Source of the DNA: Stieleria varia
GTDB taxonomy: Bacteria; Planctomycetota; Planctomycetia; Pirellulales; Pirellulaceae
Direction: 5' to 3'
Assembly (NCBI RefSeq): GCF_038443385.1
Contig: NZ_CP151726.1
Coordinates: 4,898,001 to 4,962,000, forward strand
Length of the DNA stretch: 64,000 nucleotides
In this document: in pieces, positions 20,187 through 38,691 of the stretch
How the letters are laid out: every line of letters starts with the position of its first letter
Position numbering within the stretch: the stretch's first letter is position 1
Notes under the pieces: generated by a model
What the model was told of the DNA's origin: nothing
Seen by the model: only the letters and a program-made list of their open reading frames with translations
Database searches by the model: none
Position numbers and translations under genes: made by a program

Positions 20187-22328
20187 TCATTCGTCCAGGA
20201 CATTGACTTTCACTGAATTGGCAGTTTCGGCGGACAAGTTGACTTCACCAAGCGAATGAGAATCGTTTGGTTCAGTGGACTCGGAGTGGAGTCGCAGACT
20301 CGCGCCGACAGGAAGTTTCTCTATCGTGTAGTAGCCTTCCGCGTCCGTCTTGACTTTCAAGCGTTTCCATTCAATGGATGTGTCGAGTGGATCCAGCGGG
20401 TCCTGATCTGACTCTTGATCGACCTCAACGCTAACAAACGCGTTGACGGATCGTCCAGCAATGGGCTCTTCGTCTCGGCTGAGCAATCTACCACGAAAAC
20501 TTATGGTGGGTTGCAGCATGACACGCAGCATGCGTTGCGGTTGATCGACTGTGACAATGCCTCCCCAATCACCGTCTTCGCTGTACGCGATCACGGCCAC
20601 ACGCGTGGCCATGGTATTGAACGAAAAAACTCCGTCGTTTCGAACCGAAACCGTTACCGTACCAGGAAACCGTCCATCGATCGATCCGGCGACCACAGTC
20701 AAAGTGCTAAAATCAATCTCCTTGTGATCTCCTTTCACGCAGACGCCAAGGATTGTTCTCGGTTCGTCGAACTCCCGATGAATGGTGAGTTTGTTCGGTT
20801 GCCCCACAACTACGGGGATCTTCTCTTCGACACGCCAATTGGGATCGAGGATGCTGACCTCAAGTTCTTTTCCCGGTTGGACGTGCACGACAGCACCACC
20901 ATCTTCGTTGGTCCTCACCCATGAGGCGCGAGTGCCACTCCCGTATTCCTTCTGACCATTTTTTAGCCAACTGAAAACGTGCGTTTGACACACAAGGAGT
21001 TGTTGATTGGGTAGTGGACGATGGTTTTCGCCAGCGGTTACTTGGATCTCCAACGCAGCCGATCTCTGTATGTCAAGTATAATCGGCGTTGGCTCTCTTC
21101 CGTCATCGGGCGCAGGAATCAGATCGATCATGTCGCTCGTGAATTTCGTATCGTTGACGCAAACGCAGTAGGTCGCACCCGGCAGCACATCGGCCACGAA
21201 TCGGCCCTCTTTGTCCGTCACCGAAAGAAGAACATCACTGCGGCGTAATCGTTCGCCCTGAAAACTTCGCAATTGGATGGTAAACCCGGCTTTCGACCCC
21301 TTGGTACGTTTCAATACTCCTGAAACCTTGACTCGTTTACGCTTTTGTTCGACTCTGACGAGAAAGTCATTGATTACCCACTTACCCTTGTCGACTTGGA
21401 ACCACTGGTTGTCATCCAAATCGACGTAACAACTATGATTCTCCCAGTCGGGAAACCATTTGAATACAGCGTCACCTTGATCATCAGTCACCATCTCCGA
21501 CGCGTCGATGGTACCCATTAAGTTGTAGAACGGTGGCGGTGTCCCTACCTGAAATTGAAATCGAATACCCGACACAGGAATGTTATCGCCGTCAACGACA
21601 TGAATCTTCAGTGGACGACACTCATGAAGCGTCACCGTGTGCGTCTCAGCGTCAGGGTCCCGAATAGGTTCACGATCAAAATAAAATCCGCCAAACCAAG
21701 GATTGTCCGTCCACGTGGTGATCGCACGAAGTTGTTCATCGCTAAGCAAGTCAAACGCCGCAGAACCGTCGTCACCGGTGCGTTTGATCATCACGTGACC
21801 CGTGCTCATTTCCAACTTGACGTTGGCTTTGGCGACAGGTGATCCATCTTGAACGGCTCTCACGGTGACCGTACGAACGCAGTGGCGAAGCGTGATGGGC
21901 AAACCGTCGATTGCAGTTTGCCGCAAGCGGACCCGATCAATGGTTAGATCGCTGCGCTGGGAACCGTCTGCCGATACGGCATCAATACGCACTGCGTACC
22001 AGTCCTGGCGATGCACCGGCAACCATACTTCGTATTGATTCCCCGTCACCGTCACGGGCAAAGTTTCGGAAACCGTCCTGCGGTTCAACTTCGCCGACAC
22101 AGACGGATTCGTCGCTGGTTCGCCTGAGGGCAGCAGGATGTCACCTTTTAATCGAATCTCCAAATCATCCAGGTTGCCCCGGATCCATTCCTCCGCAGTT
22201 TCTGCCTCGTCTACGCTGTTGGGAGCGACTGATTCTTCTCCTAGGCTTGCCATCGCAAACGGCAGGGTGGCGATTGTGAAAAGCAATACAAACCGAACGG
22301 TTCGAAAAACATTAGCGATTGGCAGCAT
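20187..22328 (-). CDS. Secreted multidomain protein, paralog 1 of a pair flanking the PKS/NRPS island
   Basis: This 713-residue exported protein of unknown function starts at the ATG at 22328. A signal peptide (FRTVRFVLLFTIATLPFAMA) follows; the long upstream extension lies in repeat DNA and is rejected. The body looks like a chain of carboxypeptidase-regulatory or Ig-like beta-sandwich domains. Repeated signatures are of the type DKEGRFVADVLPGATYCVCVND and DAEGYYTIEKLPVGA. It aligns along its whole length with the protein at 38905-41064 (for example EEWIRGNLDDLEIRLKG against EEWIRGDGENLEIRLRG, and IHREFDEPRTILG against IHREFDEPRTVLG). No enzyme motif is seen. Confidence 0.82.
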   Translation of the reverse strand: MLPIANVFRTVRFVLLFTIATLPFAMASLGEESVAPNSVDEAETAEEWIRGNLDDLEIRLKGDILLPSGEPATNPSVSAKLNRRTVSETLPVTVTGNQYEVWLPVHRQDWYAVRIDAVSADGSQRSDLTIDRVRLRQTAIDGLPITLRHCVRTVTVRAVQDGSPVAKANVKLEMSTGHVMIKRTGDDGSAAFDLLSDEQLRAITTWTDNPWFGGFYFDREPIRDPDAETHTVTLHECRPLKIHVVDGDNIPVSGIRFQFQVGTPPPFYNLMGTIDASEMVTDDQGDAVFKWFPDWENHSCYVDLDDNQWFQVDKGKWVINDFLVRVEQKRKRVKVSGVLKRTKGSKAGFTIQLRSFQGERLRRSDVLLSVTDKEGRFVADVLPGATYCVCVNDTKFTSDMIDLIPAPDDGREPTPIILDIQRSAALEIQVTAGENHRPLPNQQLLVCQTHVFSWLKNGQKEYGSGTRASWVRTNEDGGAVVHVQPGKELEVSILDPNWRVEEKIPVVVGQPNKLTIHREFDEPRTILGVCVKGDHKEIDFSTLTVVAGSIDGRFPGTVTVSVRNDGVFSFNTMATRVAVIAYSEDGDWGGIVTVDQPQRMLRVMLQPTISFRGRLLSRDEEPIAGRSVNAFVSVEVDQESDQDPLDPLDTSIEWKRLKVKTDAEGYYTIEKLPVGASLRLHSESTEPNDSHSLGEVNLSAETANSVKVNVLDE

Positions 22329-22449
22329 CGTGATCTCAAAACCAGTAGGGTCCGACGGACGATTCCAAGGACCACTGTATTGCCAGCCAGTAACCACGTC
22401 AAACTTATGCGCCCTCGCGACCTCATCGAAGGAGGATCGCCGCCAATAT

Positions 22450-22649
22450 GTTTGATATGGCAAAGAAAAAGGGACGGCAAAGAAAAAGGGACGGGCAAAG
22501 AAAAAGGGACGGGGGTAGTTTGGGCCGGGGGTAGTTTGGGCACACGAGACGGCAGCGTAAAGCGTGGGGCGTGAGCCCCATGGGGGGACGCACCACCGCG
22601 TCTGAAAAGCCGGCAAAGAAAACGGGACGGGGGTAATATTGGGCACACG
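22450..22649. repeat. Purine-rich short repeats upstream of paralog 1
   Basis: The segment holds four iterations of a short unit around GGCAAAGAAAAAGGGACGGG, plus two of GGGGGTAGTTTGGGC. These sit in front of a first partial copy of the large repeat (ACGGCAGCGTAAAGCGTGGG). The block looks like slippage-prone or recombining repeat DNA. It also creates a spurious N-terminal extension of the neighbouring gene. Confidence 0.7.
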
Positions 22650-25089: not shown

Positions 25090-28000
25090 TTAGCGGGTTG
25101 CGGGGAATGGTTGCGTCAAGGCGTCGGCTAACTGCTTGACGTGCGGTTGTTGCACCATGCTGTGATGATGACCACTCACATACTGCACATCCACTTGTCG
25201 CACCCACTTGCTCCAACCTCGGTCTGACTGTGAATCAGATGCGGCCTCCATCGGGACATCGGTGGGGCGGACCAACAATACATCGACATCCAACGGTTGC
25301 AACTCGTACTGCGATGCAAGCTCGACGTGGTGTCGAAACAAACGCTTCAAATCGGCGATGATCTTCTCCACCAATGCCGGTGGCGTCTCCTCAGCCAAAA
25401 CACCGAGTTTTTCCGCGTGGCGGTACAGCATCGGCAGAATCTCGTCTTCCGATAGTTGTGCCAGATCACGGAGCGAAAGATCGATTCCGTACTCCAAACC
25501 CACCGCGTTTGCGTCCTCGTCCGCAGATCGCTCCGGAATGGTTGTGTCCAACAGCACCAGTCGATCGACCGACAGTCCGGCCGACATCATCTGTCTGGCG
25601 ATCTCATACGCGACCACGCCGCCCAAGGACCAGCCGCCGATTTGATAGGGACCGTCGGATTGGATCGTACGAATCGCTGCGATGTACTCGTTCGACATCT
25701 CATCAATCGTTTCCGGCAGTCGCTCCGTACCATGCAATCCACGTGATCGGATCGCCCACAGCGGCTGCTCGGCAGGCATCGCATCGGCCAGTTCACGATA
25801 ACAAGCAACGATCCCGCCAGGCGGATGGATCATGAACAGCGGACGAAGCTCCCCAGAGGGCTTCAGCGGCGCTAGCAGCGGGTGCAGGTCACTTTCCGAA
25901 TCAGAATGAATCGATCGCTTGGCCCACTCGACACAGTGCCGACCGAATCGCTCCTCCATCTGCGATTCGTAAAGCTCCACGAGTCGACGTGAGAGCTGGC
26001 TGATGTCGGCCAAGTCAAAAAGGAGTGCCGTGGGGACATCGACACCAAGGATGTCCGACAGAGTTTGCGTCAACATTGCGGCTTGCAGAGAGCTGCCGCC
26101 GAGCTGAAAAAAGTTTTCGGTCACGCCGACGGCAGGCAGTTGAAGTGTCTCTGCCCACAAGTCAGCCAAGAAACGTTCCAGCTCCGTCTGCGGCAATACG
26201 CCCACATCTTGGCGTGTCGATTGACTGACGATCTCCGGCAACTGATTCCTCAGCAATTTGCCGCTCGTGCCGGTGGGTAACTCCGTCAATCCCGAGAACA
26301 CCTGCGGACGTTTGTAGCTGGGCAACTTTTCGGCGACAAACCGGGTCAGTGAAGTGACCATCGCGTCATTAAGTTGAGCTGACGGTTCACCGTCGTCGCC
26401 GTCCGGGACGACGAAGGCCACGAGCATTGCAGAGGGTGAGTCGGCATTGAGAATCTTGCATGCGGCTGCGGAGACTTGAGGATGGTTGGCGACGACCCGC
26501 TCAATCTCCTCCAGCTCGATCCGATACCCACCTAGTTTCACTTGTCCATCGTCTCGCCTGAGAAATTCAATCTGTCCATCCACGCGACGACGCCCGATGT
26601 CGCCCGTCAGATAGACGCGTTGTTCGTTGTTTGCATCAGGCAAAGCAACAAACGAATTCTGCGTTTTCATCGGATCGGCAAGGTATCCGGTGGCCAGTCC
26701 ACGACCGGTGATCGCGATTTGCCCAGGAACCGTGGGCGGATTGGGTTGCAGAAACTCGTTGACAATGCGAATCTCCGCGCCGTCGATTTCTGTTCCGATG
26801 GGGACACGCCGATTGGCGGGATGATCGGTCGCACAATACGCGGTGGCTTCAACGGAACATTCCGTGGGTCCATAGAAATTCCACAATTCCGCTTTCGTGA
26901 TTTGGCGAACAAGGCGCGGCAGGTCACTAGGCATCGCTTCGCCGCCACACCAAATCTGCCTGACGCTGGTAACCTTTCGAAACCGCGGACGTTGCAGCAG
27001 AACACGGATCAAGCTGGGGACGGCGGGCAAGATCGTGATGGAGTCGCGAATGATCTGATCGATCAACGAATCGGGATCACGAAACACACCAGCGTCAGGC
27101 CAAACAAGCGTGGCACCCTGAGCGAGCGTCGTGAACGCTACTCCAATCGCCGCGTCGAACTGATGCGACAACAACATCAACACGCGATCGTCGCTCAAAA
27201 GTGGCACGTCGCGGCTACGCCAACGAAGCGTGTTGGCGATTCCACGGTGAGGAACCATCACTCCTTTGGGCGTGCCCGTTGATCCGGAAGTGTAGATGAC
27301 ATAAGCAAGATCGTTCGGAGAAACATCATCGTTCTTTGACACACTCGACGGTGAGTCTTTCATTACATCACGCAGCTCGATTCTGCGATCCGCCGGTACT
27401 GATTCTTGCCAGGAACCGGTGTCATCAACGATGGCGAAAGGAATCGTGGTATCGCACTGAAGCTGCTGAAACGAAACCGCCGGTTGCGAACTGTCGATCG
27501 GAATGAACGCGGCACCGGACGCCATCACGCCAAGGATGCCGATCATCGCATCGGCTCCTCGTGGGGCGCAAACCGGAACAAAATCACCAATACCGACCTT
27601 CGCCGCGTTCAAATGCGCTGCCAATCGAAGCGCACGATCCAGAACCTCTCGATAAGTGAGAACAACGTCGTCAAGCTGCATCGCCGGTCGATCTGCATAC
27701 TCGCACTCCGCTGGACCGAACAACAGCGATTTGAGAGTCTCCTCAGGGCTGTCAACACGGGCATGACCATGCGACGACTCGATCCGTTTGTCATTCCACG
27801 CGACGGACTTCACTCTCTCATCTGGCGAACGAAGCAACTGGGTGAACAGTGTTTGAAAGTTCTGCGACATCTGTTCAACGGTGTCACGCTGAAACAAATC
27901 TCGGCAGTAACAAATCAATCCACGAAGCTCGTTTTGTGCAAACTCAAAGACGAACTCGACGTCGTGATGGCAAGTCGGGTGACGCACGAAGAATCCTTCC

Positions 28001-29229
28001 TGATTGAGGCCTCCTTCGTCGACATAACTCTGTTGCGAATCCATCAAGAAACCGGCCCGTCCCTCCTCGCTCCGCAAATGCGCCTTTTCAAACGTACACG
28101 ACACTTGGAACAGCGGAGTTCGCCCTGCATCGCGTTTTGGACCGACTTGTCGAACGATCTCGGAGAGCGGCAACTGCTCGTGCTGCAACGCATCAAACAT
28201 GTGCTGACTGATGGTCGACACAAAATCGGCGAAACAAGGATTGGCCGAAACATCCGCCGGAATCGGCAACATGTTCACAAAAAAGCCGACGGTGTTTTCA
28301 AAACGCTGCTGGCTGCGTCCCGAAAACGGCGTTCCGACAAGAAAGGCGTCTTGTCCGGTGGAGCGGGCAATGAAAACGGACAATGCAGCCATCACAACGG
28401 CGTTGGGTGTGGTGCCGAATTTCGCGGCGCTTTGTTTGATTTTGTCGACGAAGCCATCTTGCATCGAGAAGGTGACGACGTCGGCACGTCCTGTGAAGCT
28501 TTCAGGACGATGGTAGTCCGTCACCCAATCCAGCACGGTCGGGATGCCTGACAACGAACTTTTCCAATACTGGCGGTCGGTCTGCGATAGAGGACTGTCC
28601 AAGCGTTGCCGCTGATGGTCGACAAACTCATGGTAATTGTTCGATGCCGCCGGCAATTCAGGCTCCCCGCCGCTCGCGAATGCCGAGTACGCGGTACGGA
28701 TTTCGCTCATCATCAAGATCAACGACCAAAAATCGACCACGATGTGATGCGTAGTCGCCACCACAACGCAATCGGTTTCACTGCGCCGTAGACATGCAAC
28801 TCGAATCAGCGGACCGGTCGTCAAATCGAACGGTCGCTGCGTCTGTTCCAGCACCAACGCTCGAAGCGCCTCGTCATCCGCGCCTGACGCGTCGGTGATC
28901 GTGAACTCAGGTGCCAGTTGTGGGTGAACGGTTTGTTTCAGTTCACCGGACTCTGCAGAGAACGTGGTACGTAGCGATGCGTGTCTCTGGGCAAGCCACA
29001 CGATCGAACGCTCCAGCGCGTCGATGTCTAAGCGTGAACGAATCCGTGACGGCAGAAAGACGTTGTATGCCGTTGAGTTGGGATCCCGTCGGAACGCGTG
29101 CCACAGGCCCTGTTGCCCCAACGACATGGGGAAACAACTGCTCGCAACGCTCCTTTGCTGCAGCAGGTTCCGCAGCAGTTCACGTTTCTGCTCAGGCGTC
29201 AGTCCATCGATGGGGCCATTTAAATTCAT
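25090..29229 (-). CDS. Non-ribosomal peptide synthetase module (C-A-PCP-TE)
   Basis: This 1379-residue enzyme adds one amino acid and releases the product. A short helical lead (LTPEQKRELLRNLLQQR) may dock to the PKS. The condensation domain (about 30-450) has HHIVVDFW near 164, Phe replacing the usual Gly of HHxxxDG. The adenylation domain (about 480-995) shows YTSGSTGTPKG near 650, NFYGPTE near 783, YLTGDIGRR and the catalytic Lys in SGKLLR near 988. A hand alignment to GrsA gives pocket residues D-A-G-I-W-G-F-V-E-K, which I cannot match to a known amino acid. The carrier domain has LGGSS near 1045. The thioesterase has GWSLGG near 1200 and GHHHSM near 1355. It lies nine bases after the PKS. 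Confidence 0.95.
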   Translation of the reverse strand: MNLNGPIDGLTPEQKRELLRNLLQQRSVASSCFPMSLGQQGLWHAFRRDPNSTAYNVFLPSRIRSRLDIDALERSIVWLAQRHASLRTTFSAESGELKQTVHPQLAPEFTITDASGADDEALRALVLEQTQRPFDLTTGPLIRVACLRRSETDCVVVATTHHIVVDFWSLILMMSEIRTAYSAFASGGEPELPAASNNYHEFVDHQRQRLDSPLSQTDRQYWKSSLSGIPTVLDWVTDYHRPESFTGRADVVTFSMQDGFVDKIKQSAAKFGTTPNAVVMAALSVFIARSTGQDAFLVGTPFSGRSQQRFENTVGFFVNMLPIPADVSANPCFADFVSTISQHMFDALQHEQLPLSEIVRQVGPKRDAGRTPLFQVSCTFEKAHLRSEEGRAGFLMDSQQSYVDEGGLNQEGFFVRHPTCHHDVEFVFEFAQNELRGLICYCRDLFQRDTVEQMSQNFQTLFTQLLRSPDERVKSVAWNDKRIESSHGHARVDSPEETLKSLLFGPAECEYADRPAMQLDDVVLTYREVLDRALRLAAHLNAAKVGIGDFVPVCAPRGADAMIGILGVMASGAAFIPIDSSQPAVSFQQLQCDTTIPFAIVDDTGSWQESVPADRRIELRDVMKDSPSSVSKNDDVSPNDLAYVIYTSGSTGTPKGVMVPHRGIANTLRWRSRDVPLLSDDRVLMLLSHQFDAAIGVAFTTLAQGATLVWPDAGVFRDPDSLIDQIIRDSITILPAVPSLIRVLLQRPRFRKVTSVRQIWCGGEAMPSDLPRLVRQITKAELWNFYGPTECSVEATAYCATDHPANRRVPIGTEIDGAEIRIVNEFLQPNPPTVPGQIAITGRGLATGYLADPMKTQNSFVALPDANNEQRVYLTGDIGRRRVDGQIEFLRRDDGQVKLGGYRIELEEIERVVANHPQVSAAACKILNADSPSAMLVAFVVPDGDDGEPSAQLNDAMVTSLTRFVAEKLPSYKRPQVFSGLTELPTGTSGKLLRNQLPEIVSQSTRQDVGVLPQTELERFLADLWAETLQLPAVGVTENFFQLGGSSLQAAMLTQTLSDILGVDVPTALLFDLADISQLSRRLVELYESQMEERFGRHCVEWAKRSIHSDSESDLHPLLAPLKPSGELRPLFMIHPPGGIVACYRELADAMPAEQPLWAIRSRGLHGTERLPETIDEMSNEYIAAIRTIQSDGPYQIGGWSLGGVVAYEIARQMMSAGLSVDRLVLLDTTIPERSADEDANAVGLEYGIDLSLRDLAQLSEDEILPMLYRHAEKLGVLAEETPPALVEKIIADLKRLFRHHVELASQYELQPLDVDVLLVRPTDVPMEAASDSQSDRGWSKWVRQVDVQYVSGHHHSMVQQPHVKQLADALTQPFPATR

Positions 29230-29238
29230 CAGGTCGCA

Positions 29239-32200
29239 CTATTCCAACATCTGCTTGAGCAGTTGATCGACCGCCGACTCTGACATGCCGGGCAACTGTT
29301 GCAGCAACAATCCGGCTTGGTCACCAGTGATGGGTTCCGGGAGGGTTTCGTTCATGGGAATTTTGCTCACGGGCGGCGATTTCTGCGACTCATCGTAGGA
29401 GCCGGGCGACTGCATGGTCAAGGATTCGATCTCGGTTGCCAATTGATCGATGCTGGGACAACGCATCAGCATCGCGATGGGCAAGCTGATCTCGATGCGA
29501 CTTTCGATCCAGTTTCGCAATTCCACCGCCATCAGTGAATCGAGCCCCATCTCCACGAGCGGTCGATGCGATTCGACTTGGGAAAGTTCCATCCCGAGCA
29601 GACTCGCGGTCTTTGTGCACACAATCGCGCGGATCATCTCTCGCCTGTCCTCTGAGTCCGCTTCGCGAATCTGCTTGGCCGTCGCCAGCGTGTTGACGCC
29701 GCCGGAGACAAACTCGTTACGATGTTGCAGCAGATGAGCGAACCTTGGTGACGGGTCGGAGGTGATCCCCAGACCACGCCAAAGCGACCAGTCCATTTTC
29801 AGGACGCTCAATTGCAACGCTTCGTTCTGCATTGCGAACTGCAAGGCATCCGTTGCTTGTCGGACGGTGAAACTCAGCACGCCTTGGCGTTCCAGTCGTT
29901 GCCCCAGTTCGTCTCGTTGAGCAAGGTAGCCGACTTCGCCCAAATGTCCCCAGTTGATGACGAGTCCTGGCAAGCCGACCGCGCGACGATAATGCGTCAG
30001 CGAATCCAACAAAGCGTTCGCTGCGGAATAGTTGGCCTGTCCGGCATGACCGAAAACGCTTGAAAGCGACGAAAACAATACAAAGTGGTCCAACGAGCGA
30101 TCCAACGACGCTTCGTGCATGTTCCAACCACCGATGACCTTTGGCCGCAAGACACGCGTCAGAGTTTCGCGATCCAGGTCGGCCAGCAAGCGGTCTTCTA
30201 ACACCATCGCGGTGTGGAACATCCCCTTCAGTGGCGGCATGTGATCATCGATGTGCCGCAACACGGAGTCCACATCAGCACGACACGTGATGTCGGCCGG
30301 CAAGACCTTGACCTCGACGCCCATCGACTTCATCGATTCGACTTGCTTGGACACGTCCGCTGGCAGCTTTTTTCGTCGACCACTCAGCACAAGATGCCGG
30401 GCACCGCGTTGGGCCATCCATCGCGCGATTTGCAATCCGAATCCACCGGTCCCACCGGCAATCCAGTACGTTGCGTCGGCACGAAACTCCACCGGCGGTC
30501 GAGCGGAGGGATACAACGCGTCGGGTGGTGAGTCGAATCGCACGGTGACTTTACCGACATGCTTGGCTTGCTGCATGAACCGATACGCCTCACGCGTTTC
30601 TGCGACAGGGTATGCGATCGTGGGCAGCGGTTGTAATTCGTTGGACTCAAACCTCGGAACCAGGTCACGCAGCATGTCGCCCATTCGTTCCGGCTGGACC
30701 TTGAACAATTGATCCAAATCGATCGCGAACATGGCCAAGTTGTTTCGCATGGGCGCCAGTCCCAACGGCCGATCGGCGTAGATGTCACGCTTGCCGATCT
30801 CCAAAAAGCGTCCGCCGGTGTTGAGAATCGACAGTCCCTTCTCGATCGCTTCGCCGGGCAATGAGTTCAGAATCGCATCGACTCCGCGCCCACCGGTGAT
30901 CGCCATTGTTTGCTGAGCGAAGGCAAGCGATCGTGAATCCATTGCATAGGATGCACCAGCGTCGAGAACGTACTGCCGCTTCTCTGCCGTACCGGCCGTT
31001 GCCAAAACCTCAACACCCGCTGCGAGCGCCAATTGAATCGCAGCCAAGCCGACACCGCCGCTGGCCGAGTGAATCAATACGCTCTCGCCTTTTCGCATCC
31101 GGGCGCATTCGTGCAACGCGTACTGAGCCGTCAAGAACGCGATCGGCAACGCCGCAGCTTGCTGAGCGGAAAGATTCTGGGGTTGCCGAGCGACCAGGGC
31201 CGCGTCCACGACGACTTTATCGGCAAACGATCCCGGGGCAATCGCGATGACTTGGTCACCCGGCTTCCACTGCGAGACATTCTGTCCGACGCGAGAGATT
31301 CGTCCGGCACACTCGGCACCCAAAGCGACCGGTCCATCCGGCAATCCGGGGTACAAATCCAGGGCTTTCATCACGTCGCTGAAATTCAGACCGGTCGCCT
31401 CGACAGCGATTTCGACTTGATCGTCCAGCAAAATCCTGCTCGGTTCGGTTTCATACCGAAGCTCTTCGATTGCGGCGGAGTTGCCTCGACGCAGGCGGTA
31501 GCTCCCATAATTCTTTGGTGTCGGCAACAACGGCTGACGAGCTTGCGGTACGAAGCGTCGAACAAAACGCTTTCCATCGCGATACATGATCTCGTCTTCG
31601 TCGTCGCCGCAGGCCACGATCTCGGCCAGTAGTTGGTCGACGGTTTGAATTGTGCGTGACGGCTTGATCACGTCAGCAAACGGAGCACTGCGGGTGACAT
31701 CAACCAACTTGCAACGCAGACGCGAGCATTCGCTGATCATCACGCGTCCCATACCGATCAGCGGGGACTGCGCAACGGCGACTTGCTGGATGGTATCGTC
31801 GGGACTCTGTGCATCGGTCGTCACCAGGGTGAGGTTCGCCGCCGAACCGTCGTGAACCCGCTCCCATGCCTGAACCCAATGCGTCGGGGCCAGAGTCGTC
31901 AGCACGGTGCTACGTTCCAGTCGGGCAGGATTCAGATCGCTGTTCTCCGGAGCGTCGAGTCCCCAGAGAAAGACGATGTCAGTGGGCGGTTGCTCCATCT
32001 CGTCGAGGACCCTGGCAAAATCATCCAAATTCTCAGGATCGATGATGAAGGTCCGATCGTCGAGTCGGCGATACGACGTTCCATGCTGAATCTGGTACAC
32101 ATCGCCTAGTTGTCGAAGCGAACCGACCAAAGCCGCACCAAGCCCACCTCGGTCACTCAGCACGCACCAAAGTCGTTGCGTGTTGTCGGAACTAAGCGAT

Positions 32201-35200
32201 TTGACCTCCGACGGCTGCCAAACGTAACGGTAAATCAAATCGATCGAATCGATCTTGTTGGGATCGGCTGTAACACTCGCTGGTCCGGAGACCCGTCGAC
32301 TCTCAAACCCACGAATCGATACGCAGTGCTGACCGGATGCGTCGACGATGTCGATGTCCGCCAGCATCCGGTACGGATCTTTGCTCAAGATGCGTACGTG
32401 AGCAGTCAACATGCCGGCAACAGGTCGGTGAACAATGATTTTTTGAATCGTATTGGGCAGATACAGATCACTCAGCGTGTGATCAAACGCCGCGTCGGCG
32501 ATGATCATCCCATGAAAACAACTGTCCAGTGCGGCCGGGTGCAACGCATATCCTGGATCAGATCCGCGGACCTTGATCGTCACGACCGCTTCGCCGTCCC
32601 GTCGATCCGCACCGACGACACAACGAAACTCCGGCCCGTACTGAAGCCCAAGGGAATCGCAGTACGCGTAGCAACGTTCCGCGGTCACGGACTCTTCGCA
32701 GCGTGCGATCGCCTGCGAAATCGATTCCACCGACCAATCCGAGGTCATCTCAGAATCAAGAATCTGCATCGGCAGCGTCGAGTCATCGCTCAGCGTGACA
32801 TCCGCTATCGTCTGCCAAGTCGACTCGTCGGTCTCACTGGCGCTGAAGGTCAGCCGATTACGTTCGACGTCAAAACGAACATTCATTCGCTTGGCGTTCT
32901 CGTCATCGAGCAACAGCGGATGGTGCAATCGCAGTGACTCAAGGCACACTGCTGGCGAGTCCATTTGTTTGGCATCGAAATGTGCCGCGTCCTCGGCGAT
33001 CTGCTTGCCAGCCGTATAAGCCATTTCAATGATGGCTGCGGCCGGTAAGACAATCTTTCCGCGAACCGCGTGATCGCGCAAGTAGCGTTGCAACCGCAAG
33101 TCGATACGGCCTTGCCATTGCGCGTTGCCGCTGTCGACGGAGTCTTGCAATAGCGGGTGGTAGTCTGCAACCGTTCGTGTGCTCAGCGACTCCAACGATT
33201 CCGACCACAGGCGTTGACGCTGAAAGGGATACTCGGGCAAGTCGAGTTTACGCGACGGCTTGTCGTTCAGCCGAGACCAATCCAAGTCCAAACCGATGCT
33301 ATACAAACTCGCCAGCGAATCGGTCATGCACAGTAGGTCGTTGCGATCACGGTGTAGCGATGGAACCACGCGTACCTCGGCACCCGTGCGTTGATAACAC
33401 TCCGTGATGGCAAACGAAAGCACTGGGTGGGGGCCGATTTCGACCGCGACCGCAAAGCCGAGTCCGCTTGCGACTCGCATCGCGTCGGCAAACAGGACGC
33501 TTTGGCGGACATTTTGCCACCAGTATTCGGCATCCAACCCGGTTCCGTCAAAAACATCCCCGGTCACCGTCGAGATCAACGGCGTGTGCGTGGGACTTGG
33601 TTGGATGTTGGCCAACGACCGGATCAGTTCGTCCCGGACCGGCATCATCTGAGGGCTGTGGAAAGCGTACTCGACTTTCAAGCGACGACAGAACACACCC
33701 GCCACGTTGAGTTTTTCGTCCAACGACGCAATCACCGATTCGTCACCCGAGATCGTGATCGATGTCGGCCCGTTGATCGCCGCGATCGAGACGTGATCCA
33801 AGCAGTCGCGAATCCATGGTCTGACTTCATCTGGCGAAAGCCCCACGGCGATCATCGCGCCGCGAGACGTTGCCAGATCCATAGTTCGACCGCGGTGGAT
33901 CGCCACGCAACATGCGTCTTGGAAACTGAGACCGCCCGACAGGTGCGCCGCTGCAATCTCGCCCACGCTGTGACCGACGATGGCGGTGGGAACGATTCCC
34001 CAGTCACGCCACGTCTCCGCTACCGCGACTTGCAGCGCAAAGATGCACGGCTGCGCGATTCGCGTGGACTGCAATCGCGATTCGGTCTCGCGTTTCGACA
34101 ATTCATCCAACAGCGACCAACGGACGTACTTGGCAAACTCCCGATCGCATCGCTCGATACAATCGCGAAACACTTTGTTATTCTCCAATAGCCCGCGACC
34201 CATCGCCCACCACTGGGGTCCTTGTCCGCTGCAAACAAACAGCACACCACGATCCAGCTGACTTTTGGATAACCGATGCTGTGAATGTTTATCGGGATCG
34301 GCCGCGATCTCACGAAGCTGAGCGGCCCACTGCTCTCGGGATTCGGCAACGACGCCGACGCGGTACTCCAGGTGGCTGCGTTGATGTGCAACCGCATCAG
34401 CGATCGCCGCGTCATCGACATCGCTCGGCAATTCGTCCAGCCAATCGGCATATCGGTCCGCGATCGCCGCAAGGGATTCCGCATCGCGAGCGGACAGAGG
34501 CAGCAGGTTGAGTGCCGGATGCTTGGAGATTGCGGATCGTTTCGTTGAGGAAATCGCGGTACTCGGTGCGACTTCATCGGGTGCTTGGCCGACCAAGACG
34601 TGCGCGTTCGCGCCCCCGTATCCAAAACCGTTCACTCCCGCCAAACGAGGCGTATCGCTTGCCGGCCACGGAGTCAGTGTGGTGGGGACACGCAGGTTCA
34701 ATGATGCGAAATCGATTTGCGGATTCGCCGATTGAAAATGCAAATTCGGTGGAATCTGAGCGTTACGAATCGACAATGCGACTTTGATCAAGCTCGCGAT
34801 TCCCGCTCCGGCTTCCAGGTGTCCGATGTTTGTTTTGACCGAACCGATCAGGCATGGCTCGCCGCGATTCTGTCCGCCGCGATTCTGTCCCACCACGGCC
34901 GCCAACGCGTTGGCTTCGATCGGGTCACCGACCGGCGTTCCGGTTCCATGAGCTTCCACGTATTGAATCGCAGCGGGATCGATATCCGCGATCTGGCAAG
35001 CTCGACGAACCAATGCTTGCTGGGCATCGCCGCTGGGCACTGTCATGCCTTGCGTGCGACCGTCTTGATTCAAGACACTGGCTCGGATCACTGCATGAAT
35101 CTGATCGCCGTCGCGTTGGGCGTCCGACAACCGTTTCAACATCACCATCCCGGCGCCTTCGCTGCGAACGTATCCGTTTGCTCGGGCGTCGAACGTTTTG

Positions 35201-35946
35201 CAACGTCCGTCCGGCGACAGCACGCCGAGTTGGCTGAAGGCCACATAAAAGTCAGGCAACAGCAACGCGTTCACGCCACCGGCAAAAGCGACACTGGTAT
35301 CGCAACGCTGCAAGGACTCGCACGCCATGTGAACGGCGACGAGGGAAGACGAGCACGCAGTGTCAACCGCGACGCTGGGACCGCGCAAGTCGAAACAGTA
35401 CGAAATCCGATTCGCTGCGATACTGCTGCTGCCGCCCGTGTTGCTGTAGGGACCGATCACGCCGCGATCCTGGTAGCTCAATCCGGCGACCGCGTAGTCA
35501 AAACTGGAGATCCCGACGTAAACACCTGCTGCGGTGCCGGCCAGACTTTCGATCGGGTGACCGGCGTTCTCGACGCAGCGCCACGCGACTTCCAGCAACA
35601 TCCTTTGCTGTGGGTCCATCGCGGCCGCTTCACGTGGCGAGATCCCAAACAATTTCGCGTCGAACTGATCGATGTCAGAGACGTATCCGCCCCACTGGCT
35701 CTGAGTCTTTCCAGGGGCGACGGGGCCAGGTGCGTAGAATTTTTGCAAACTCCATCGCGTCTCTGGCGTTTTCTGGATCGCGTCACGCCCATTGCTCAGC
35801 AATTCCCAGTAAGCATCCGGATTGTCCACGCCGCCTGGCAGTCGACAACCCATCCCGATGATCGCGATCGGTTCATAACGTACTGCTGCGGCGTCACCGT
35901 GACGCGCATTGCGGTGATTCGATGGTGGAGGGGATGAGGCTGCCAC
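29239..35946 (-). CDS. Type I polyketide synthase, fully reducing module (KS-AT-DH-ER-KR-ACP)
   Basis: This 2235-residue enzyme carries every domain needed to extend and fully reduce a chain. The KS (about 23-450) has DTACSSS near 196, EAHGTGT and NIGHLEAG. The AT (about 565-880) has GHSVGE near 659 and YAFHS near 759; the AFH motif points to malonyl-CoA. The DH has HAVRGKIVLP near 957. The ER has SASGGVGLAAIQ near 1634. The KR has GGTGGFG near 1836 and the catalytic Tyr in QANYSAAN near 1974. The ACP has MGLDSL near 2134. The start is a GTG at 35946. There is no loading domain, so the starter may come in trans or the module may work iteratively. Cotranscription with the NRPS is nearly certain. 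Confidence 0.96.
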   Translation of the reverse strand: MAASSPPPSNHRNARHGDAAAVRYEPIAIIGMGCRLPGGVDNPDAYWELLSNGRDAIQKTPETRWSLQKFYAPGPVAPGKTQSQWGGYVSDIDQFDAKLFGISPREAAAMDPQQRMLLEVAWRCVENAGHPIESLAGTAAGVYVGISSFDYAVAGLSYQDRGVIGPYSNTGGSSSIAANRISYCFDLRGPSVAVDTACSSSLVAVHMACESLQRCDTSVAFAGGVNALLLPDFYVAFSQLGVLSPDGRCKTFDARANGYVRSEGAGMVMLKRLSDAQRDGDQIHAVIRASVLNQDGRTQGMTVPSGDAQQALVRRACQIADIDPAAIQYVEAHGTGTPVGDPIEANALAAVVGQNRGGQNRGEPCLIGSVKTNIGHLEAGAGIASLIKVALSIRNAQIPPNLHFQSANPQIDFASLNLRVPTTLTPWPASDTPRLAGVNGFGYGGANAHVLVGQAPDEVAPSTAISSTKRSAISKHPALNLLPLSARDAESLAAIADRYADWLDELPSDVDDAAIADAVAHQRSHLEYRVGVVAESREQWAAQLREIAADPDKHSQHRLSKSQLDRGVLFVCSGQGPQWWAMGRGLLENNKVFRDCIERCDREFAKYVRWSLLDELSKRETESRLQSTRIAQPCIFALQVAVAETWRDWGIVPTAIVGHSVGEIAAAHLSGGLSFQDACCVAIHRGRTMDLATSRGAMIAVGLSPDEVRPWIRDCLDHVSIAAINGPTSITISGDESVIASLDEKLNVAGVFCRRLKVEYAFHSPQMMPVRDELIRSLANIQPSPTHTPLISTVTGDVFDGTGLDAEYWWQNVRQSVLFADAMRVASGLGFAVAVEIGPHPVLSFAITECYQRTGAEVRVVPSLHRDRNDLLCMTDSLASLYSIGLDLDWSRLNDKPSRKLDLPEYPFQRQRLWSESLESLSTRTVADYHPLLQDSVDSGNAQWQGRIDLRLQRYLRDHAVRGKIVLPAAAIIEMAYTAGKQIAEDAAHFDAKQMDSPAVCLESLRLHHPLLLDDENAKRMNVRFDVERNRLTFSASETDESTWQTIADVTLSDDSTLPMQILDSEMTSDWSVESISQAIARCEESVTAERCYAYCDSLGLQYGPEFRCVVGADRRDGEAVVTIKVRGSDPGYALHPAALDSCFHGMIIADAAFDHTLSDLYLPNTIQKIIVHRPVAGMLTAHVRILSKDPYRMLADIDIVDASGQHCVSIRGFESRRVSGPASVTADPNKIDSIDLIYRYVWQPSEVKSLSSDNTQRLWCVLSDRGGLGAALVGSLRQLGDVYQIQHGTSYRRLDDRTFIIDPENLDDFARVLDEMEQPPTDIVFLWGLDAPENSDLNPARLERSTVLTTLAPTHWVQAWERVHDGSAANLTLVTTDAQSPDDTIQQVAVAQSPLIGMGRVMISECSRLRCKLVDVTRSAPFADVIKPSRTIQTVDQLLAEIVACGDDEDEIMYRDGKRFVRRFVPQARQPLLPTPKNYGSYRLRRGNSAAIEELRYETEPSRILLDDQVEIAVEATGLNFSDVMKALDLYPGLPDGPVALGAECAGRISRVGQNVSQWKPGDQVIAIAPGSFADKVVVDAALVARQPQNLSAQQAAALPIAFLTAQYALHECARMRKGESVLIHSASGGVGLAAIQLALAAGVEVLATAGTAEKRQYVLDAGASYAMDSRSLAFAQQTMAITGGRGVDAILNSLPGEAIEKGLSILNTGGRFLEIGKRDIYADRPLGLAPMRNNLAMFAIDLDQLFKVQPERMGDMLRDLVPRFESNELQPLPTIAYPVAETREAYRFMQQAKHVGKVTVRFDSPPDALYPSARPPVEFRADATYWIAGGTGGFGLQIARWMAQRGARHLVLSGRRKKLPADVSKQVESMKSMGVEVKVLPADITCRADVDSVLRHIDDHMPPLKGMFHTAMVLEDRLLADLDRETLTRVLRPKVIGGWNMHEASLDRSLDHFVLFSSLSSVFGHAGQANYSAANALLDSLTHYRRAVGLPGLVINWGHLGEVGYLAQRDELGQRLERQGVLSFTVRQATDALQFAMQNEALQLSVLKMDWSLWRGLGITSDPSPRFAHLLQHRNEFVSGGVNTLATAKQIREADSEDRREMIRAIVCTKTASLLGMELSQVESHRPLVEMGLDSLMAVELRNWIESRIEISLPIAMLMRCPSIDQLATEIESLTMQSPGSYDESQKSPPVSKIPMNETLPEPITGDQAGLLLQQLPGMSESAVDQLLKQMLE

Positions 35947-36142: not shown

Positions 36143-37300
36143 TTACCAAGGACGAAACGCTTCCGTCGGCATCATCCGGCTGGCCCGTCTGGCTGGCAGG
36201 ATTGCACCCAACAGCCCGATCGTCAGGCCCAACACGGCTCCCTGTAGCAGTACCGGCAGATCGATCACCGGCGTCAGGATCCCGCGAACGGACGGTGAAA
36301 GCGATAAAATCCAGGTCAAAAGAATCGCCAACAGGCTGCCCAGTACGACGGAAACAATCGCCAATACCAACGACTCCAACAGAATCATCCACGTCACCCT
36401 ACGGCTCGGCCAGCCTACCGCCCGTAGTATCCCAATCTCTCGCGTCCGCTCCATCACGCTGGTCATCATCGTGTTGAGTGTTCCGATCGCACCGATCACC
36501 ACGGCAATCATGGACGTCATCCAAGCCATCGCGCCGGCGATCTGCATCCGAGTGTCGGTCTGCACGAACTCGTCAGTGGTCAAAGCCAACAATCTGCGAT
36601 CCAACTGCTGGATTTCCTCGGAGATCTGTTTCGCTGACTCCACCGTCGCGTCGGAGCGCAGCACGACGTTGATGTAAGTGACTTGGCCGTTCCTGTCGGT
36701 CAACAATTGCAGCTGCTCCAGTGGCATGATCATCGAGCCGTTCTCCCAAGCACTGCTGCTCTCAAAAATTCCCGCGACCAAATACGGCTCCTCAAAAAGC
36801 GAGACCGATCCGCCGATCCCCACGCCGAGACGATCGGCCAAGTTCACCCCCAAGGACACTTGCGCTTGATCGGCAACCGAACTCGCTGATTCAGGATTCT
36901 CTGACTCAGCATTCTCTGCTCGCTCACGCCAACGGTAATCGTCTCGCAGCCAACTATCGGTGCGAATCCCCATCGTCGGGATCCCATAAACTCCTTGCTC
37001 CTCAAACGACAACGTCTCCAGCAAAACCCCAGCCGCGTTGTCTACTCCGGGGATCGCTCGAATCTTTTCCTCAAACGCTTCGTCGACACTGCTGCTGAGA
37101 CGATCCGCTGACCCCTGCCGTGAAACCACGATGTCGACGCTGTGGGATTCATAGACACCCGAAAATGACTTCGTGAAACCGCGAGCGATCCCAATCAGAG
37201 CGACCACGGCGGCGATGGCGGCGGAGAACGCTAGCAACGTCAGACTAGTACGAAGTGGCCTGCGAGTCAGATTTTTGAGCACGAGTGATGAAAAACGCAT
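36143..37300 (-). CDS. ABC transporter permease (FtsX/MacB-like)
   Basis: This 385-residue inner-membrane protein has the FtsX/MacB layout. One N-terminal helix (TSLTLLAFSAAIAAVVALIG) is followed by a large periplasmic domain. Three C-terminal helices end in LGAILPARRASRMMPTEAFR, the typical tail. The cytoplasmic motif MERTREIGILRAVGWPSRR contacts the ATPase in this family. The ATG at 37300 is chosen over a longer start. No ATPase gene is adjacent, so it must share one from elsewhere. It lies 196 bases upstream of the PKS on the same strand and could export the product, but that rests on position. Confidence 0.88.
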   Translation of the reverse strand: MRFSSLVLKNLTRRPLRTSLTLLAFSAAIAAVVALIGIARGFTKSFSGVYESHSVDIVVSRQGSADRLSSSVDEAFEEKIRAIPGVDNAAGVLLETLSFEEQGVYGIPTMGIRTDSWLRDDYRWRERAENAESENPESASSVADQAQVSLGVNLADRLGVGIGGSVSLFEEPYLVAGIFESSSAWENGSMIMPLEQLQLLTDRNGQVTYINVVLRSDATVESAKQISEEIQQLDRRLLALTTDEFVQTDTRMQIAGAMAWMTSMIAVVIGAIGTLNTMMTSVMERTREIGILRAVGWPSRRVTWMILLESLVLAIVSVVLGSLLAILLTWILSLSPSVRGILTPVIDLPVLLQGAVLGLTIGLLGAILPARRASRMMPTEAFRPW

Positions 37301-37432
37301 CCTTGACGCCAGATCGAGCTTGCATTGATTCAGAAAAACCGGCAAAAGCACCGTAAGCATGGCCCCCCCGTCGGTCCCTTGCAACCACAGGTTCCTGAAC
37401 CTCGATCACGTTTGGGAATTGGTGGCACGTTT

Positions 37433-37490
37433 TCGACTTGGAAAGTCGAACGACAATCGCGAAACATAGTCGCTCGACTTTCCAAGTCGA
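37433..37490. repeat. Inverted repeat between divergent permease and SppA-like genes
   Basis: Two 22-base arms (37433-37454, 37469-37490) share TCGACTTGGAAAGTCG with one mismatch around a 14-base loop. The same core occurs twice in direct orientation at 42324-42389, so this is a dispersed repeat rather than a dedicated operator. It nevertheless lies in the divergent promoter region of two genes. Confidence 0.8.
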
Positions 37491-37551
37491 TAGCGCGCAA
37501 CACCGAACAAGCCAACCACAGTCCAAGACACACCAACCAAGCGACAATCGA

Positions 37552-38691
37552 ATGAGCCGACCGGCTGATTCACGACCGAAACAGCAACCCGTCACGTCCC
37601 TACTTTTTGTCACGGCGGTGCTTCTGTTCACCTTTGTCGGCTGCGGTCGTCGAACCCTGATGCACCGAGGCGAGATGACCGTCGGTGGCAAGATGGGAGT
37701 CAGTGGCGATGTCGGTTTCTCCGGCGACGTCAACATGAACGGTGACATCAACACCACAATGAGCATGATCACCAACAACACGGCATCGCGGCTCGCCCCT
37801 GTGTTGGTTTCCGGATCGACGCAAAGCGGCACGCAAGCCAAAGTGGCTGTCATTGATGTCGATGGTCTGCTGCTGGACAAAAACATCAGCGGGTTTGGCT
37901 CGATGGGTGAGAACCCCGTCGCGTTGTTCCGAGAAAAGCTCGACGCGGTGCGAGAGGATGCGAACGTCACTGCCTTGGTGTTACGTATCAACTCGCCCGG
38001 TGGCGGCGTGACCGCATCGGACATGATGTGCCACGAACTGGAAAAGCTGAAGACCGAACGCAAGATGCCTGTGGTCGCGTGTTTGATGGACACCGGAACC
38101 GGTGGCGCGTATTACTTGGCCAGCCATTGCGATCAAGTCATCTCGCATCCGACGACTATCGTTGGCGGAATCGGCGTGATTTTGAATGTGTACAATCTCG
38201 AAGACACGATGGGTTCGTTCAACATCTTGTCCACTCCCGTTAAATCTGGTGAGCAGATCGATGCTGGCACGCCCGAACGGACAATGGCTGACGAGGAGTT
38301 GGAGATGTTGCAGGCGATCGCCGACTCGTTTCATCTTCGTTTCACCGATCACATCGCCCGCGTCCGCAGCAAAGCAACCGATGCGAAGTCGTGGTCCGAA
38401 GGCCAAGTGTTCTCGGGGCAACGAGCTGTTGAACTGGGCTTGGTCGATCGCGTCGGATATCTCGATGACGCGATCGAATTGGCGCAGCAAATGTCGGGAG
38501 CGACCAGCGATTCTGGAGTGGTCATGTACCGCAGAGACAACGACCGAGCGTACACACCGTTGGATGTGACTCCCAATCAACCCACGATGTCGTCTTTGTT
38601 ACCGATCAAGATGCCCGGGTTGGATCGCAGCAGCATGCCAACGTTCCTGTACCTTTGGCAACCCGAACCAAGCATGTCATCGGGCATCTGA
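37552..38691 (+). CDS. SppA-like S49 family lipoprotein, probably catalytically inactive
   Basis: This 379-residue protein starts at the ATG at 37552. A signal ends at a lipobox (TFVGC). A short Gly/Met-rich repeat follows (GGKMGVSGDVGFSGDVNMNG), then an S49 peptidase domain with LVLRINSPGGGVTASD and PTTIVGGIGVIL. SppA enzymes use a Ser/Lys dyad. Aligned by eye, the position of the nucleophile in ASGGYY is Gly here (TGTGGAYYLAS). The catalytic Lys of the SGxYKD motif is Ile (KSGEQIDAG). If the alignment is right, this is a pseudoprotease or scaffold. It is divergent from the permease gene. Confidence 0.85.
   Translation: MSRPADSRPKQQPVTSLLFVTAVLLFTFVGCGRRTLMHRGEMTVGGKMGVSGDVGFSGDVNMNGDINTTMSMITNNTASRLAPVLVSGSTQSGTQAKVAVIDVDGLLLDKNISGFGSMGENPVALFREKLDAVREDANVTALVLRINSPGGGVTASDMMCHELEKLKTERKMPVVACLMDTGTGGAYYLASHCDQVISHPTTIVGGIGVILNVYNLEDTMGSFNILSTPVKSGEQIDAGTPERTMADEELEMLQAIADSFHLRFTDHIARVRSKATDAKSWSEGQVFSGQRAVELGLVDRVGYLDDAIELAQQMSGATSDSGVVMYRRDNDRAYTPLDVTPNQPTMSSLLPIKMPGLDRSSMPTFLYLWQPEPSMSSGI

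Follow-up and report, generated by a model that had tools for sequence, protein, structure and literature searches.

A conserved polyketide synthase-nonribosomal peptide synthetase gene pair of planctomycetes as a candidate assembly line for an exported lipo-amino acid

Among described systems, the architecture that appears nearest to the one considered here is that of the polycyclic tetramate macrolactam (PTM; HSAF-type) synthases, in which one polyketide synthase (PKS) module, used iteratively, is followed by a nonribosomal peptide synthetase (NRPS) module with condensation, adenylation, peptidyl carrier and thioesterase domains (C-A-PCP-TE; PMC8399814); the likeness is one of domain order. 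In planctomycetes, species descriptions give antiSMASH counts of 'mixed type I PKS-NRPS' clusters with no product named (PMC7717043, PMC12910023, PMC11588811), and further cluster counts are found in PMC13241502. Stieleria sp. TBK1r has one such mixed cluster by antiSMASH and SV_7m_r has none (PMC11588811). A bimodular NRPS-PKS with unknown products was reported in Rhodopirellula baltica (Donadio et al. 2007, cited in PMC4982196). The present work concerns a PKS-NRPS gene pair of Stieleria varia, carried by a stretch of 64,000 nucleotides (the window; positions 4898001-4962000 of the genome, a single contig of 9719866 bases). No product for the family of this pair is given in the excerpts of the open-access literature examined (PMC4982196, PMC7717043, PMC13241502, PMC12910023, PMC11588811, PMC12078418, PMC12254169, PMC10896814, PMC12479983, PMC12493201, PMC8064123, PMC8399814).

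Sequence comparison indicates that the pair belongs to a real, intact and conserved orphan PKS-NRPS family of planctomycetes, and that this is one orthologous family. We consider it fairly probable that the two proteins form an assembly line whose product is a lipo-amino acid destined for export, in which an iterative reducing PKS, amidation by the NRPS, release by the TE and export by a transporter would act in turn.

The gene pair and its conservation

Both genes lie on the reverse strand. The type I, fully reducing PKS (29239..35946, GTG start, 2235 aa) has the Pfam domain order KS-AT-DH-ER-KR-ACP, and its stop is separated by a 9 bp spacer (29230-29238) from the start of the NRPS module (25090..29229, ATG start, 1379 aa; C-A-PCP-TE). 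Pfam E-values for these domains reach 1.7e-93, far past chance level. Open reading frame (ORF) calls and Pfam thus bear out what an earlier note had read from the letters of the DNA, namely the span of the pair, the nine-base gap and both domain orders; it had also described a PKS without a loading domain, and none was found in the Pfam scan. The database protein P0121 is this PKS minus 31 residues relative to the GTG-started ORF (35854-35946). A start at Met32, as in that shorter form, would truncate the N-terminus of the KS.

The catalytic residues of the PKS were compared in an alignment of 35 rows, comprising the window and 34 unique sequences out of 44 PKS-like ORFs that aligned over more than 1500 aa. 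Each catalytic residue of the KS, AT, DH, KR and ACP is invariant wherever a row has a letter (33-35 of 35 rows). In the KS (residues 25-529, 34360..35874; PF00109, PF02801, PF16197) these are C198 (33/33 rows with letters), H333 and H376 (each 34/34). The AT (residues 570-874, 33325..34239; Pfam) carries the motifs GHSVGE and YAFH with S660 (34/34) and H763, and all 35 rows keep Y, F and H in YAFH. The DH (residues 930-1223, 32278..33159; PF21089/PF14765) keeps H959, P968 and D1141 in 35/35; the Gly of its HxxxGxxxxP motif is found in just 12 of 35, and the final residue of the second DH motif is His in 30 rows and Gln in 5. The KR (residues 1825-2002, 29941..30474; PF08659) has S1959, Y1973 and K1936, with S, Y, N and K in every row, and the ACP (residues 2109-2171, 29434..29622; PF00550) has S2137 of GLDSLMA, likewise in every row. 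The ER occupies residues 1508-1800 (30547..31425; PF08240, PF00107, PF13602).

For the NRPS, motifs were counted in the 120 listed of 941 homologues. The C domain (residues 34-476, 27802..29130; PF00668) carries HHIVVDFW, and HHI[VI]VDFW occurs in 107 of the 120. The TE (residues 1129-1370, 25120..25845; PF00975) carries GGWSLGG and GHHHSM, and GGWSxGG occurs in 119, the remaining row having no letters there. The PCP (residues 1020-1083, 25981..26172; PF00550) has LGGSSLQA. The key active-site motifs that the earlier note saw in both proteins are therefore intact in the window and in its relatives, and alignment of sequences, as opposed to structures, revealed no inactivating substitution in the catalytic residues examined. 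Decaying or inactive genes were ruled out because these residues are conserved in both proteins.

NRPS orthologues, defined by an identity of at least 39% that we set as threshold (other listed matches lie at about 28-38%), were found in at least 39 of 241 Pirellulaceae genomes (the family to which the window belongs), some of them as fragments at contig ends. In the window's genus, 12 of 14 genomes have one, and the two that do not (G205, G211) lack the PKS orthologue too. In a draw of 392 genomes across the phylum, 31 of them from other families of the same class, no near-full-length NRPS match above 34% identity was listed besides the window's own. Relatives at 38-40% identity occur in Singulisphaera acidiphila, Singulisphaera sp. 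GP187, Isosphaeraceae metagenome-assembled genomes (MAGs) and one Gemmataceae MAG; remoter full-length matches come from Blastocatellia (L103, 30%) and a Verrucomicrobia MAG (L115, 33%). The searches made brought up no characterised cluster that matches closely, the best-listed relatives being uncharacterised planctomycete proteins. The best solved relatives are LgrA for the NRPS and mycocerosic acid synthase (MAS) for the PKS.

As in the window, PKS and NRPS orthologues of the family adjoin or are fused, and they diverge together. Of 20 related loci, 18 have the PKS beside the NRPS or fused to it. The two exceptions, G011 and G020, encode it on a different contig of their genome (57-60% identity); the G020 assembly is fragmented and that of G011 is good, so that true unlinking can be called for G011 only. 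Among loci from named records the genes are adjacent or fused in 32 of 38. In four of the six misses (L067, L081, L089, L092) the contig begins at the NRPS or inside it, L085 corresponds to the G020 locus, and the sixth is L082, a Pirellulaceae MAG (SJ586) with an NRPS orthologue for which no PKS was found up to about 10 kb away on each side. PKS and NRPS distances correlate at r = 0.966 over 32 loci including the window, with 0 of 2000 permutations as high, in a test that, like the Fisher tests, ignores shared ancestry. This value demonstrates co-inheritance rather than independent contact. The two trees are concordant in their main groups, and the position of L060 differs.

Where the genes are separate, the PKS ends in a helix-like tail, a predicted docking element (29242..29319, reverse strand; counterpart tails in separate pairs read, for example, LLxQLPxMSDxxVDxLLAxLL), and the NRPS begins with a helix-like head, its predicted partner (29149..29202, reverse strand; consensus LSxxQQRELLxxLLxxKA from 22 sequences). 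In the fused ORFs of L058, L068, L073, L075, L080, L084 and L087 the ACP runs into the C domain without tail or head; L065 was judged fused from its NRPS head region, and L080 has a frame break inside the PKS part. The fused forms included in the trees occupy three separate positions, which therefore imply at least three fusions. Delivery from the ACP to the C domain of the NRPS, as the earlier note had supposed, is well supported by the loss of the end segments on fusion, the co-divergence and the repeated fusion.

In the chemistry that we favour, the single PKS module would be primed by a starter and would extend it iteratively with malonyl units, each beta-keto group being fully reduced, to give a saturated, unbranched acyl-ACP. 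We take GHSVGE together with YAFH to mark an AT of the malonyl type. The conserved end segments would bring the PKS to the NRPS, the A domain would load one alpha-amino acid, the C domain would amidate it with the acyl chain, and the TE would free the N-acyl amino acid.

A single module with no loading domain, and scanned neighbours that include no recognisable starter-unit gene, would also suit a non-iterative elongase, which takes a ready-made fatty-acid chain and adds one reduced C2 unit to yield the same product class. We regard this as unlikely, as the closest solved full-length relative, MAS, is iterative; MAS also takes a preformed acyl starter, so the elongase and iterative readings overlap. 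The closest architectural analogues, the PTM synthases, use their one module iteratively as well (PMC8399814). These synthases also raise the possibility that a beta-keto group persists after the final cycle and that the TE forms a tetramic acid through Dieckmann cyclisation. Their order around the single iterative module is KS-AT-DH-KR-ACP-C-A-PCP-TE (PMC8399814), ours is the same with an ER added, and the window family is naturally fused in some lineages. However, the ER is not only present but conserved, and the redox genes of PTM clusters (FAD oxidoreductases, sterol desaturase, alcohol dehydrogenase; PMC8399814) were not seen among the 13 larger window ORFs scanned with Pfam; a tetramate product is thus quite improbable.

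The adenylation pocket

The A domain (residues 511-991, 26257..27699, reverse strand; PF00501/PF13193) was aligned without gaps to the A domains of LgrA, with pocket positions, 278 included, numbered as in GrsA. Position 278 is Pro735, which gives the code D-A-G-P-W-G-F-V-E-K. The earlier note had read D-A-G-I-W-G-F-V-E-K; its fourth residue was misread, the Ile sitting at the wrong position. We know of no substrate code equal to DAGPWGFVEK. The pocket is widely kept among the 120 listed homologues, with Glu331 in 114, Trp299 in 108 and Pro278 in 99.

Codes were compared in 35 loci including the window, two of which (L091, L094) are incomplete. Twelve of the 27 complete loci outside the Singulisphaera group, the window among them, read DA[GA]PWGF[VI]EK, and nine differ from it at one or two positions and keep Glu331. 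The remaining six (L042, L046, L061, L062, L063, L088) read DA[PV]QWG[FY]CQK, the S. neptunia code being DAPQWGFCQK. These six form one Stieleria subclade, in which positions 239, 278, 330 and 331 have changed jointly; this suggests a switch of substrate within the genus. In the Singulisphaera group, L076 and L093 read DPCE[CY]GLVDK and L077 reads DPGECGLVDK, codes whose E278 and D331 resemble the ornithine code; L083 and L090, which group with Singulisphaera, read DAAPCGLI[ND]K, and L087, also of this group, DATQVGLVEK. The amino acid substrate thus probably varies between lineages. Glycine was also considered as the substrate. An A-PCP-TE query ranked glycine-activating NRPSs high, the A domain alone lost that order, and the idea was not used.

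Neighbouring and distant genes

Upstream of the PKS lies a gene for a MacB/FtsX-type ABC permease (36143..37384, reverse strand, 413 aa; PF12704, PF02687), with a homologue in 18 of 20 related loci (L057 holds a 112-aa piece only). Divergent from it is a gene for an S49 (SppA-like) peptidase with a lipobox-like FVGC (37438..38691, forward strand, 417 aa; PF01343), found in 16 of the 20 loci; in L068, L073, L080 and L092 the gene is on the 3' side. The description of the locus as a compact pair understated the system, since permease and lipoprotein peptidase are conserved neighbours and further parts lie elsewhere in the genome. On each side the cluster is bordered by a gene for a large protein with carboxypeptidase-regulatory-like domains (20187-22646 and 38905-41064, both on the reverse strand), and for neither protein did the 20 related loci yield a homologue.

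An ABC ATPase gene stands directly 3' of the NRPS in L049/L078, L050, L052, L053, L054, L065, L068, L073, L080, L081 and L092, its product at least 56% identical to that of L049 and LolD/MacB/DevA-like where tested (L049, L068). Beside the ATPase in L050, L052-L054, L065, L068, L073, L080, L081 and L092 is a gene of the P0242 family, with an apparent signal sequence. Two members of this family had no Pfam match, and a search with its AlphaFold2 model (mean pLDDT 83.4) gave a best Foldseek E-value of 0.14 and 0 solved structures at or below 0.001. A second family with an apparent signal sequence and without a Pfam match, P0241, is encoded near the cluster in L049/L078, L052-L054, L068, L073, L080 and L092, and a phosphopantetheinyl transferase (PPTase)-like gene in L068 (Pfam ACPS) and, by similarity, in L073, L080, L081 and L092. 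At L093, L083 and L090 of the Singulisphaera group, an ATPase and a DevC/FtsX-type permease are divergent from the PKS, and L093 has an HlyD-type gene with a homologue at L083.

In the S. varia genome, the orthologue of the cluster ATPase lies at 2065618-2066280 (60% identity, best of 71 matches, the next at 47%), 2.9 Mb from the pair and divergent from a P0242-family gene (L152:6441-7460, 40% identity), in the same arrangement that is found beside the NRPS in other genera. The sole match to the cluster PPTase lies at 6894604-6895176. The P0242 family was found in 62 of 241 Pirellulaceae genomes and, by the matches listed, in 37 of 39 that have the NRPS (absent from G044 and G184) against 25 of 202 that do not. 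In the window's genus all 14 genomes agree (12 with both, 2 with neither), and so do all 15 of genus g5 (11 with both, 4 with neither); in genus g51 all 13 genomes have P0242 and 6 have the NRPS. The permease beside the PKS may pair with the distantly encoded ATPase to move the product out of the inner membrane, and the secreted proteins and the S49 lipoprotein peptidase would act with this transporter in the envelope.

The genes linked to the pair, for a permease, an ATPase, an S49 lipoprotein peptidase and secreted proteins, all point to an envelope product, and the devBCA genes are needed for export of heterocyst glycolipids (PMC8064123). Both would also fit a TE that, instead of releasing a free acid, transfers the acyl-aminoacyl group to a hydroxy acid, a sugar or a second product, so that a larger lipid of the membrane or the surface results. 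The proteins scanned, which cover only some of the neighbours, included no recognisable glycosyltransferase or additional acyltransferase, and we hold such a transfer to be improbable.

The genome also contains a second fully reducing PKS outside the window (L154:6723-15890, contig positions 9404722-9413889, 3055 aa), which is 41% identical to the window PKS across the first 1246 aligned columns. It has a C-terminal thioester-reductase-like domain (PF07993), with a methyltransferase gene after it and an ABC ATPase gene nearby, and looks like a reductive-release lipid synthase.

Several points, besides the shared ancestry that the tests above ignore, weigh against the assembly line preferred here. 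Iteration cannot be read from sequence, and the scan of ORFs recognised no gene for loading a starter, no genome-wide search having been made. The ATPase is not beside the pair in this genome, and transporter genes beside the PKS were not seen by similarity at L076, L077 and L087. The window code fits no substrate code known to us; the code is also not constant across loci, so there may be no single product. Finally, 25 Pirellulaceae genomes carry the P0242 family without the NRPS (G150, G155 and G157-G161 of g51, and 18 others), so that this protein may have a role in a further system as well.

A broader reading, which we offer tentatively and regard as doubtful, would have an envelope lipo-amino acid in several families of the planctomycete class, built by PKS and NRPS instead of fatty-acid enzymes plus an N-acyltransferase and exported by a dedicated, genomically scattered MacB/DevC-type transporter with secreted proteins of so-far-unmatched folds, its head group being switched through the A-domain pocket. 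The dispersal of pathway genes in planctomycetes has been raised for the stieleriacines (PMC12479983), and the scattered parts described here would be a concrete case. Once the window's copy is placed in a single orthologous family, whose architecture is fixed, whose genes fused repeatedly, whose A pocket depends on the lineage and which has a co-inherited distant gene, a generic orphan cluster becomes a testable system.

Comparison with known systems

One fused member of the family is a 3665-aa ORF in a genome that we take to be that of Rhodopirellula baltica SH1, with identities of 49% to the PKS of the window and 45% to its NRPS. Unlike the separate genes of the window, this fusion has lost both end segments. 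It is probably the bimodular NRPS-PKS of Donadio and co-workers. The window PKS aligns over its full length with MAS (994 bits, residues 23-2056); the AT motif of MAS is VASH, whereas that of the window is YAFH, and MAS is not known to have an NRPS partner. Among NCBIfam models, the best on the PKS was NF045894, 'type I polyketide synthase' (1360.2 bits, under its cut-off of 1740), and NF041183, sulfolipid PKS, gave 1241.6 bits, under its cut-off of 2400.

Stieleriacines and planctomycete ornithine lipids are N-acyl amino acids of the same genus and class, respectively, but they are made without an NRPS. Stieleriacines (N-acyl dehydrotyrosines) are made by NasY enzymes (PMC12479983), because of which stieleriacine was ruled out as the product of the window and the two are kept separate. 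Planctomycete ornithine lipids are made by OlsH/OlsI, and S. acidiphila, the organism of L076, has them without an identifiable OlsB or OlsF (PMC12493201); the OlsB-type acyltransferase PF13444 was found in 0 of 6 genomes, with the control positive in 2 of 14. Deletion of OlsH in S. acidiphila blocks lyso-ornithine lipid, ornithine lipid and the trimethyl form (PMC12493201). Because that deletion already blocks these lipids, ornithine lipid synthesis was rejected as the main role of the pair.

Heterocyst glycolipid synthesis (Hgl PKS with DevBCA; PMC8064123) offers another parallel, a polyketide-type lipid synthase with a DevA/DevC/HlyD-type exporter. The likeness is found at L093, whose DevA and DevC matches lie under the family cut-offs (204.4 of 295.8 and 71.8 of 290.35, respectively); in the window, a permease is all that was found of this exporter of three parts (HlyD adaptor, DevA ATPase, DevC permease). 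HglB has a thioester reductase domain (PMC8064123), whereas the window family would release its product through the NRPS and TE. The PTM synthases share the succession of one PKS module and C-A-PCP-TE, but they have no ER, place two polyene chains on ornithine and work with cyclising redox enzymes. The window family, in contrast, has an ER, is accompanied by transporter and secreted-protein genes and, unlike the PTM synthase, is split over two genes at most loci seen.

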